Origin: Planctomyces sp. SH-PL62
GTDB lineage: Bacteria; Planctomycetota; Planctomycetia; Isosphaerales; Isosphaeraceae
DNA length: 64,000 bases
Reading direction: 5' to 3'
Assembly: GCF_001610895.1 (NCBI RefSeq)
Contig: NZ_CP011273.1
Span: 1,922,001 to 1,986,000, forward strand
Shown here piece by piece: positions 27,667 through 31,536 of the stretch. The position numbers and the translations under genes were made by a program. Below the pieces are notes generated by a model. It had not been told where the DNA came from. It saw only the letters and a program-made list of their open reading frames with translations, and did not search any database. Every line of letters starts with the position of its first letter. Position 1 is the stretch's first letter.

Positions 27667-28582
27667 ATCTTGGCCTATCGTCCTTAAGTCCATCATCGGC
27701 CTGTATTTCGCGAGATTCGTCTCGCACGCGAGGCTGTATCGGGAAAGAAAGCGCACCGGCCCGGGGCCGGGGGGGAGACGACCGATCCTCGTGAAGCGGC
27801 GGTCGGCCGCAAGAACGCGAGGCGTCCTCAGGTGGTCGATCGTAGACATCCTTCGCTGGGGGGACGGGTGAGTCCCCGGTCAGCGGAATCGCAAGCCTCA
27901 AGCTCAAGAGACGCCGGGCGTCCAACATGGCGAGGCGAGGAGGAAGGGACCCACCGAAGGATCGCCGATTCCGATGTATGCGTCAACAAGTACGGGGCCT
28001 CGGTCCAACCATCGTACGATGTGAAACCGCATGGGCCAACCTCCTTGCGCGGTATGCTCGCGGGGCCTCGGAGAAAGCCACTACATCCTGGTACGCATAG
28101 GAGCCGACGAGCATAGCCACCTTTTCCAGATCGGCGGTCGAACGGGAACTCGAGAAGGAGCATCTGAGGCCGAGGTCTTGGTTCATCCCCGGAGGTTGAG
28201 ACGCCTCAGAATCCTAGCAAATACCGCGCCTGAAGAGGACAGCCCCATGACGTCGGCGAGATTTGAAGCCTGAGGACCGATGCAGGAGGGGAATGGGGAT
28301 CAGCCCCACCTCGAACATCGGGCCGGAAGCCCGTCCGCTTTGTAAGAAGCGGATGACTCGAAGACAAAAGTTACAGGTCCGGAACGCACCTGTCAAATAA
28401 AAAAGCGACGAGACCATGATTCTTTTGGGACCTCCGTCGACTCGAGCCCGACGCGCGCCTCTCGTGGGGGCTGGCGCGAGCGGGGCCTCGCCGTCTATAG
28501 TAGAATAGAGGGCGGCGACGGCCTCCAGGTTCGCGGCGTGGAGGGGCGACGCCGAGGCTTGCGTCCATGGGGAACGGCATTC
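27667..28582. other. Weakly coding gap before recQ
   Basis: More than 900 bases show no frame with the GC-rich third-position pattern of the flanking genes; several short frames on both strands overlap each other and resemble nothing known. The region is less GC-rich, and 28290-28400 contains four consecutive hairpins described separately. It may hold a degraded gene or a non-coding RNA. Confidence 0.45.
28296..28393. other. Cluster of four hairpins (possible structured RNA)
   Basis: In order on the + strand: GGGG/CCCC around ATCAG (28296-28308), CGGGC/GCCCG around CGGAA (28319-28333), TCCGCTT/AAGCGGA around TGTAAG (28334-28353), and ACAGGT/ACCTGT around nine bases (28373-28393). The last is followed by an A-rich tract on the + strand. 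The density of short stems suggests a non-coding RNA or a tRNA-like remnant, but no known family fits. Confidence 0.35.
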
Positions 28583-30667
28583 ATGGGTCTCGTCGGTGGG
28601 CCGGTCGATCTGGAACTCTCCCTTCGTGAGCGGTTCGGGCTGCGGGATTTCCGTCCCGGACAGCGCGAGGTCATCGAGTCGGTCCTCGCGGGCCGGGACG
28701 TCCTCTGCGTGATGCCGACGGGCGGCGGCAAGAGCCTCTGCTACCAGCTCCCGGCCGTCGTGACTCCCGGCCTCACGCTGGTCGTCAGCCCGCTCATCGC
28801 CTTGATGAAGGATCAGGTCGACGCCCTCACCGCGCGCGGGGTGCGCGCCACCCTCCTGAACTCCACCATCGACCCGGCCGCCCAACGGCAGCGGATGGAG
28901 GAGATCGAGGCCGGGCTCTACGACATGGTGTACGTCGCCCCCGAGCGGTTCCGCAGCGGCCGCTTCACGGCGATGCTCCAACGGGTCCCCCCGGCCCTGC
29001 TCGCGATCGACGAGGCCCACTGCATCAGCCAGTGGGGGCACGACTTCCGGCCCGACTACGCGCGCCTGGGGGAGGCCCGACGGCGGATCGGCTCGCCTCC
29101 TTGCATCGCGCTCACGGCCACGGCCACCGACGTCGTCCAGCGCGACGTGGCCGAGCAGCTCGGCCTGATCGACCCGCGACTCTTCGTCACCGGGTTCGAC
29201 CGTCCCAACCTCCGCTACGTGGTGGCCCGGACCGGCCGCGACGAGGCCAAGCTCGAGGAGCTGAGCCGCACCCTGGAGCGGTTCCCCGGCCCCTCGGTGA
29301 TCTACGCCTCCAGCCGGGCCCGTTGCGAATCGGTGGCGGGCTACGTCGCCAAGGAGCTGCGCCGGGAGGTCGTCGTCTACCACGCCGGGCTGGATCGCGA
29401 GGCCCGGTCGAAGGCCCAGGACGATTTCATGAGCGGCGACGCCGACGTGGTGGTCGCCACCAACGCGTTCGGCATGGGGGTCGACAAGCCCGACATCCGC
29501 TCGGTCATCCACTTCAACATGCCGGGCACGATCGAGGCTTATTACCAGGAGGCCGGTCGCGCCGGCCGCGACGGCGGGGCCTCGGTCTGCGTGCTGCTCT
29601 ACTCGGCCGGCGACCGGCGGCTCCAGGAGCTGTTCATCGAGAACGAGTTCCCCCCCAAGCCGGTCGTCCACCAGATCTACGACTTCCTGCGGTCGCTCGA
29701 CGACGACCCGATCGAGCTGACCCTGACCCAGATCCTGGAGCGATCGGGCGTGGACGTGAAGGAGTCCGGGGTGGGCGCCGCGCTCAAGATCCTGGACGAC
29801 GCCGGGGCGATCGAAAAGTTCTCGCCGCGTGAAAACATGGCGATCGTCCGCTTCAATCTCGAGGCCGAGGAGGCCGAGGGGAGCCTGGTGGACCGCGTCA
29901 GCGCGCAGGCGCCGGTGAAGCGGGCGGTCCTGGCGGGGCTGGAGGCGATGGCGAGGGGCCGCGTGGGCGAGCCCTGCTACTTCCGCCCCGACGAGCTGGC
30001 CGCCGCGTTGGGCCTCGACCGTGCGGCCCTCAACCGGGCCGTCAAGGGGCTGACGGCCGAGTTGCCGATCGACTATATCCCGCCGTTCCGGGGCAACGCC
30101 CTGCGGGTGATCGACCGCGACCGCAAGCCGCGCGACCTGGATATCGACTTCCGCAAGCTGGACGTCCGCAAGCGGCACGAGTACGAGAAGCTCGACCGCA
30201 TGACCCAGTACGCGATGAGCCCGATCTGCCGACGGTCGCTGATCCTCAGCTACTTCGGCGAGAAGGCCAACCTCTCGGAGCCCTGCGGCGGGTGCGACAA
30301 CTGCCGGTCCGACGACGGCGGCGGGGGAGTGGCCGTCACCGTCGTCGACTCTCCCGAAGCTCGTGAGACCATCCAGAAGATCCTCTCGGGAGTCGCCCGC
30401 GCCAAGGGTCGGTTCGGCAAGACGTCCGTCGCCCAGATGCTCGCCGGGTCGGACTCCGAGCGGATGGCCCGGAGCGGCCTGCAAGCCCTGAGCACCTTCG
30501 GCATCCTCCGCCAGAGCGGCCTGACCCATCGCGAGATCGCCGACCTGATCGACGCGCTGGGGGGGGTCGGATTGATCGAGAGCCAGGCCGTCGCCGACTT
30601 CAAGCCCGTGGTCTCGCTCAGCGAGGCCGGCTGGGCCTGGCTCCGCGACCGCGAGGCCCCCCCCTGA
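28583..30667 (+). CDS. recQ: ATP-dependent DNA helicase RecQ (helicase and RQC domains)
   Basis: RecQ unwinds DNA 3' to 5' in recombination and repair. The motifs are RPGQREVI (motif 0), MPTGGGKSLCYQ (Walker A), DEAHCISQWGHDFRPDY (DEAH box and aromatic-rich loop), YASSRARCE, FGMGVDKPDIR and QEAGRAGRDG. A zinc-binding Cys set (CRRSL...CGGCDNC) and the RQC winged helix follow to about residue 690. The frame ends in a run of eight C residues (30657-30664) followed at once by TGA; the HRDC domain continues in the -1 frame (next entry). The ATG at 28583 follows GGGGAA; an upstream ATG at 28538 is possible. Confidence 0.93.
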   Translation: MGLVGGPVDLELSLRERFGLRDFRPGQREVIESVLAGRDVLCVMPTGGGKSLCYQLPAVVTPGLTLVVSPLIALMKDQVDALTARGVRATLLNSTIDPAAQRQRMEEIEAGLYDMVYVAPERFRSGRFTAMLQRVPPALLAIDEAHCISQWGHDFRPDYARLGEARRRIGSPPCIALTATATDVVQRDVAEQLGLIDPRLFVTGFDRPNLRYVVARTGRDEAKLEELSRTLERFPGPSVIYASSRARCESVAGYVAKELRREVVVYHAGLDREARSKAQDDFMSGDADVVVATNAFGMGVDKPDIRSVIHFNMPGTIEAYYQEAGRAGRDGGASVCVLLYSAGDRRLQELFIENEFPPKPVVHQIYDFLRSLDDDPIELTLTQILERSGVDVKESGVGAALKILDDAGAIEKFSPRENMAIVRFNLEAEEAEGSLVDRVSAQAPVKRAVLAGLEAMARGRVGEPCYFRPDELAAALGLDRAALNRAVKGLTAELPIDYIPPFRGNALRVIDRDRKPRDLDIDFRKLDVRKRHEYEKLDRMTQYAMSPICRRSLILSYFGEKANLSEPCGGCDNCRSDDGGGGVAVTVVDSPEARETIQKILSGVARAKGRFGKTSVAQMLAGSDSERMARSGLQALSTFGILRQSGLTHREIADLIDALGGVGLIESQAVADFKPVVSLSEAGWAWLRDREAPP

Positions 30668-31536
30668 GCCTGGCCCTCCCGCGCGACGCCGCCCGCAAGT
30701 TCGCCGCGGTCCACGGCCTGGCGGCCCCGCCGGCGGCCTCCTCGACCTCCTCAACTCGGTCTTCGTCCTCCCCAGCCCGCGAGACCTCCGAAGCGTCCGA
30801 CCTGAGCGGCGATCCGCTCTGGGAGCGACTCAAGGGCCTCCGCCAGCAGTGGGCGAAGGAGTCCAAGCAACCGGCCTACTGCGTCTTCACCAACCAGACG
30901 ATGGAGGCCCTCGTCCGCCAACGTCCCACGTCCCCCGCCGCCCTCGGCGAGATCAAGGGGCTGGGCCGAGCCCGGATCGATCGCTACGGCGACGCCCTCC
31001 TCGAAGCCGTCGCCGGCGCCCCGGCCCCGACGCCGGTCGAAATGGAGGACGAACCGGTCGCGAAGCCGACGCCCAGGCCGAAACCCGCCGAGCCCAGCCC
31101 GGTCCAGCCGACGGCCGTCGAAGCGAAGTCGAAGCCCCGGCCGACGAAGCCCGAGGAGCCGACGCCCTCGCCCCGAGTGACGACCCCGGCCGCGACCCAG
31201 GCCGAGAAACCACCGGCCGCGACCCTCTCGCCCCCCCCCTCGACGGCTTCCGATCGGGTCTCGACCGAGGAGTGGACGTGGCGGTTGGTGGATCGAGGCT
31301 TCTCGATCGAGGAAGCGGCGGCGATCCGGGGGCTGGACGCGTCGGTCGTGGCCCGTCATCTGGTCTGGATGGTCCGCCGGGGGAAGCCGCTGGACCCGTC
31401 GGCGATCGCGCCGGCCGAGGTCGTCGCCGAGTGGGACGCCTGGATGGCCGAGCATCCCGAAGGCGAGGCCCCCGCCGAACCGGCGGACCGCGCCCATCTT
31501 TGGCCCCTCTTCCGCGTCTGCCGGACGGGCCGCTGA
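30664..31536 (+). pseudogene. recQ: HRDC and HTH C-terminal part of RecQ, out of frame
   Basis: Directly after the C8 tract the -1 frame is open for 290 codons and encodes an HRDC domain (GDPLWERLKGLRQQWAKESK, then YCVFTNQTMEALVRQRPTSP, then LGEIKGLGRARIDRYGDALL). A long Pro/Lys-rich linker follows, and then a helix-turn-helix-like end (LVDRGFSIEEAAAIRGLDAS) as found at the end of some RecQ proteins. There is no ATG, GTG or TTG in this frame before 30901, and a start there would cut the HRDC domain in half. The piece therefore belongs to recQ; a frameshift by mutation, slippage or sequencing error at the C tract explains it. Confidence 0.8.

Follow-up and report, generated by a model that had tools for sequence, protein, structure and literature searches.

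A recQ gene split at a C8 tract in the Planctomyces sp. SH-PL62 assembly, very probably by a missing base in a homopolymer

Introduction

HRDC is a frequent though not universal domain of RecQ helicases, and a RecQ that lacks it probably retains helicase activity and binds DNA in an altered way, as work on E. coli RecQ suggests. Programmed −1 frameshifting, by which a single gene can be read in two frames, is exemplified by dnaX and by insertion sequences. Breaks of frame can also be introduced by sequencing: one report describes systematic nanopore errors as mostly frame-shifting indels in homopolymers (PMC8011154), and a second, on one long-read assembly, describes false deletions that dominate the indel errors and are tied to runs of 2–8 bases (PMC12007338).

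The window analysed here, a stretch of 64,000 nucleotides from Planctomyces sp. SH-PL62, belongs to an assembly of 6.78 Mb in 5 contigs and contains a recQ gene whose reading frame breaks at a run of eight cytosines. An earlier note on this DNA had proposed that homopolymer slippage switches between long and short forms of the protein. The evidence gathered here points to a standard RecQ gene of a Paludisphaera-like planctomycete for which the assembly very probably lacks one base of a C homopolymer, most likely through an undercall.

Results

The RecQ ORF carries four domains (DEAD, Helicase_C, RecQ_Zn_bind, and RQC) in one frame, all above the Pfam cut-offs (Table 1). Its likelier start would be ATG 28583, judging from the matches of relatives, which begin at 28577–28610. 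As the earlier note had stated, the RecQ frame ends directly where the C8 tract adjoins a TGA (30657–30667, + strand), and the −1 frame continues with HRDC, a linker, and an HTH end, both domains being identified by Pfam. The −1 frame is free of stops from 30367. Its earliest ATG, GTG, or TTG is ATG 30901, inside HRDC, which bears out the note's reading that no usable start precedes the middle of that domain; before this codon, only CTG codons are offered, of which CTG 30664 overlaps the TGA. Because its start falls inside HRDC, the ORF that opens at ATG 30901 is not credible as a separate HRDC gene. A self-trained codon model places a switch of coding frame at 30659/30660 and scores the −1 frame as coding over 30660–31519, the coding signal in the downstream part persisting to the expected stop. 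HRDC, which is out of frame with the RecQ ORF in the SH-PL62 assembly, is in frame in the three relatives scanned with Pfam. HTH_40 was also seen after HRDC in three scanned relatives (one above the Pfam cut-off, two just under it), and six RecQ proteins of the genus share a similar C-terminal LWPL motif. Elsewhere in the genome, a second RecQ-like helicase of 530 amino acids (L003:1333-2925) has helicase and zinc domains and no match to RQC or HRDC.

Table 1. Features of the recQ locus (window positions) and other genes of the assembly that are split between frames
Feature	Position	Strand	Basis or remark
RecQ ORF to frame break	28538–30667	+	ORF list and Pfam domains
DEAD	about 28652–29140	+	Pfam, RecQ ORF
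Helicase_C	29249–29575	+	Pfam, RecQ ORF
RecQ_Zn_bind	30161–30307	+	Pfam, RecQ ORF
RQC	30356–30655 (end approximate)	+	Pfam, RecQ ORF
C8 tract	30657–30664	+	One base fewer than the frame kept in relatives
TGA stop	30665–30667	+	Reached solely through the frame break
−1 frame, remainder of the RecQ gene	30664–31536	+	HRDC, proline-rich linker, HTH_40, stop at 31534–31536
HRDC	30817–31011	+	Pfam, E 3.5e-18, −1 frame
HTH_40	31264–31461	+	Pfam, E 4.6e-8, −1 frame
Longest conventional-start ORF of the −1 frame	30901–31536	+	Start within HRDC
plsY, sole match of the genome, split at C6 run	L057, G000:C1:5237639-5238201	−	5/5 genus relatives intact
purL, sole copy, split near C7 run	L093, G000:C1:3977043-3979234	−	5/5 genus relatives intact
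galE, split between frames at C6 run	L100:13558-14564		Halves match parts of the same family
cysA-like gene (sulfate-transport-type ATPase), split between frames at C7 run	L081:17921-19059		Halves match the same family

The sequence CCCCCCCCTGA occurs once in the window, where shuffled sequences lead one to expect 0.10 occurrences and 10 of 100 shuffles had at least one. Runs of at least seven C or G number 12 G7, 10 C7, 3 C8, 3 G8, and 2 C9 in this window of ~70% GC. Because such runs are common, the C8 tract is unremarkable in itself, and it is the frame break that is remarkable. Two further runs within the RecQ gene, G8 at 30559–30566 and C9 at 31231–31239, keep the frame, which tells against error.

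A search for the downstream part across 45 family genomes gave a match in 37 of them, the window's own included; among the 36 others, the junction was examined at 29 loci. Three of these (L034–L036) gave a weak upstream alignment and were left out. At all 26 loci with a strong upstream RecQ match, the frame is open over the junction and the HRDC side lies in the same ORF, with scores that descend from 974 to 154 (L033). A C8 tract at the junction was found in none of the 26 relatives; within the 210 bases around it, their longest run of any base is 7 (G, L026) and their longest C run is 6. The five genus relatives cross the junction with different codons and a longest C run of C5, and frameshift-aware alignment against each of them gives the window one base fewer at the tract, in keeping with the note's observation that one extra C would join the two frames into a full RecQ. 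On the sequences compared, the RecQ frame break is private to the SH-PL62 assembly. Intact relatives, taken alone, are equally compatible with a recent real mutation.

The same survey bears on the idea of two proteins made by coupled re-initiation, with the HRDC-HTH part starting at the CTG that overlaps the TGA (CTGA). Such a CTG is present, and GCGAGG lies upstream with its GAGG seven bases before it, but CTG start codons are rare and both parts stand in one frame in 26 of 26 relatives. The whole gene elsewhere in the family speaks against a need for a separate HRDC-HTH start, and this reading is extremely improbable.

The switch put forward in the earlier note, in which slippage at the C tract during replication or transcription, or a ribosomal −1 slip, would give both short and full-length RecQ in a phase-variable or programmed manner, is very unlikely. 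The tract reads C CCC CCC with TGA directly after it, so that a slip of −1 would let both tRNAs pair again, and the downstream frame is preserved; any C8 tract in that phase yields such a slippery heptamer. Against the proposal, the tract is unconserved: no tract of varying length was found at the same place among the 26 other genomes compared, and neither conservation of the site nor a downstream structure of the kind that accompanies programmed −1 frameshifting was found at the junction. In a fold test for stimulatory structure, limited to pseudoknot-free folds, the 90 bases directly after the stop were unexceptional (z 0.24); of 200 shuffled sequences, 112 folded at least as well. One-base losses also occur in this genome at C/G runs of unrelated genes, where no stop adjoins the run, the sole plsY and the sole purL included. 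A literature search on recQ and programmed ribosomal frameshifting returned no paper with these terms in its title or abstract.

Constraint on the downstream part was compared between the window and its genus relatives. Pairing the window with each of five relatives gives dN/dS values of 0.295–0.421 downstream of the break and 0.106–0.266 upstream of it, and the ten pairs among the relatives give 0.274–0.471 and 0.154–0.340, respectively. Because the downstream values for the window lie within the range of the relative–relative pairs, decay of the HRDC-HTH part is not indicated, and a decaying downstream part was rejected. Unrelaxed constraint is what either an error or a mutation of very recent origin would leave.

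Near-complete synteny provides a further setting for the gene, as the window is collinear from 199 to 63551 with contig 1 of Paludisphaera soli, in inverted order. Of 42 syntenic P. soli ORFs that match the window at >150 bits, recQ alone is split in two frames, a result against the error reading. The RecQ of P. soli JC670 (G031/L013) has the same domain set, domain order, and gene neighbourhood as that of the window, with 91% identity over the helicase-to-RQC part and 62% over the remainder (HSPs), and is one continuous frame, whereas the window's RecQ is broken at the C8 tract.

Split genes were found elsewhere in the assembly. A homology census covered 864 kb of this genome and 400 kb from each of three relatives. 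Queries with 158 ORFs of the relatives gave nine split rows at seven distinct loci of this genome, namely recQ, L046, L058, L086, two in L099, and L049, of which the last is weak (38% identity in its first part) and was left out of the count. Six split loci (plus the weak one) from 158 queries stand against none from 173 queries in the reverse direction, an asymmetry with a rough Fisher p of 0.011, or 0.024 without recQ. In all nine split rows, the net shift equals one missing base modulo three. Frameshift-aware alignment covered eight loci in 21 comparisons. Every comparison showed a single base missing here and none showed a gain, and at all eight loci the missing base lies at, or at most ~5 bases from, a run of 4–8 C or G.

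Two of the split genes, plsY and purL, were chosen for closer comparison after a frame-change scan had flagged them. In this genome, plsY (PF02660) is represented solely by two neighbouring part-matches that lie in different frames; each of the five genus relatives has a single intact match. For purL (TIGR01736), two such part-matches and no match over the cut-off stand here against one over the cut-off in each of the five. For the galE and cysA-like genes in Table 1, the evidence of a split is that the two halves match parts of the same family in different frames.

Scans for frame changes gave results of unequal value. A no-start scan over 719 kb of coding sequence here counted 18 frame changes; in 303, 339, and 343 kb from three relatives, it counted 1, 3, and 2. 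These raw counts were given no weight, because ~8 of the 18 and 3 of the 6 in the controls were judged from their translations to be ordinary gene boundaries. A long-overlap scan, which leaves recQ uncounted because its stop directly follows the break, registered 13 events here, 12 of them of deletion type and 10 with a run of at least 5 inside 30 bases; the three relatives gave 2, 4, and 0 events (six in total, two with such a run). At runs of at least 7, the frame changes at 11 of 236 in this genome and at 4 of 257 in three relatives; with gene boundaries included, the excess is modest, which tells against error. A transposase-like gene (L058:2534-3594, − strand), which we take to be of the IS630 type, shifts frame at an A6 run and could be a case of programmed frameshifting, by analogy with some insertion sequences.

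A further count that speaks against error came from 464 kb scanned for C/G runs of length 8: 27 of the 37 are in frame, 8 border non-coding sequence, and only 2, those of recQ and L049, change the frame. For runs of exactly 9 in the same scan, 8 of 10 are in frame and 2 of 10 lie beside non-coding sequence. Because most C/G runs of 8 keep the frame, the error rate per tract must be low.

Discussion

The signs of an undercall are a private one-base loss in a homopolymer and the recurrence of such losses in other genes, sole core copies included; both were found. Undercalled runs are indicated because the base loss is one-sided, falls at homopolymers, and affects sole copies of core genes. That this particular base was lost to error and not to a real mutation we infer from the pattern across the assembly.

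The main rival is a true, recent one-base deletion, after which RecQ would stop just past RQC, without HRDC and HTH_40. Indels arise readily at C runs in nature, the majority of the other C8 tracts are in frame, the short product would retain the whole DEAD, Helicase_C, zinc, and RQC domains, and the genome has the second RecQ-like ORF. Such a deletion is nonetheless unlikely: similar lesions in the sole plsY and the sole purL cannot all be real if these genes are needed, a base is missing at eight of eight loci and gained at none, and constraint downstream of the break is unrelaxed, although relaxation would not yet be visible after a very recent mutation. Very improbable, too, is a real C8 tract that slips in the cell and yields an HRDC-less together with a full-length RecQ, with widespread slippage letting the organism tolerate frameshifts at C/G runs of core genes such as plsY and purL.

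With an undercall as the preferred explanation, the run would have been undercalled in sequencing or assembly, together with others of its kind in this genome, and the living cell most likely makes a single full-length RecQ with DEAD, Helicase_C, zinc, RQC, HRDC, linker, and HTH_40 in succession. The split can be taken, with high but not full confidence, as no real biological feature. It is most probably ordinary and not a genetic switch, and a simple sequencing error, which the earlier note had named as the outcome that would overturn its proposal, is now the likeliest reading. If error is the cause, the assembly needs polishing before pseudogenes are counted or split genes are read biologically. 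A tract that was real and slipped in the living cell would offer a novel means of varying a repair helicase, which no evidence here favours.

Compared with known systems, the tract has in common with programmed −1 frameshifting of the dnaX or insertion-sequence type a slippery C heptamer and an adjoining stop, and differs in being unconserved in relatives and in having no unusual structure on its 3' side. In the long-read homopolymer undercalls described by the two reports, as here, one-base losses at short runs fragment genes, and deletions outnumber insertions (PMC8011154, PMC12007338); in SH-PL62, the cause is deduced from the pattern of the losses.
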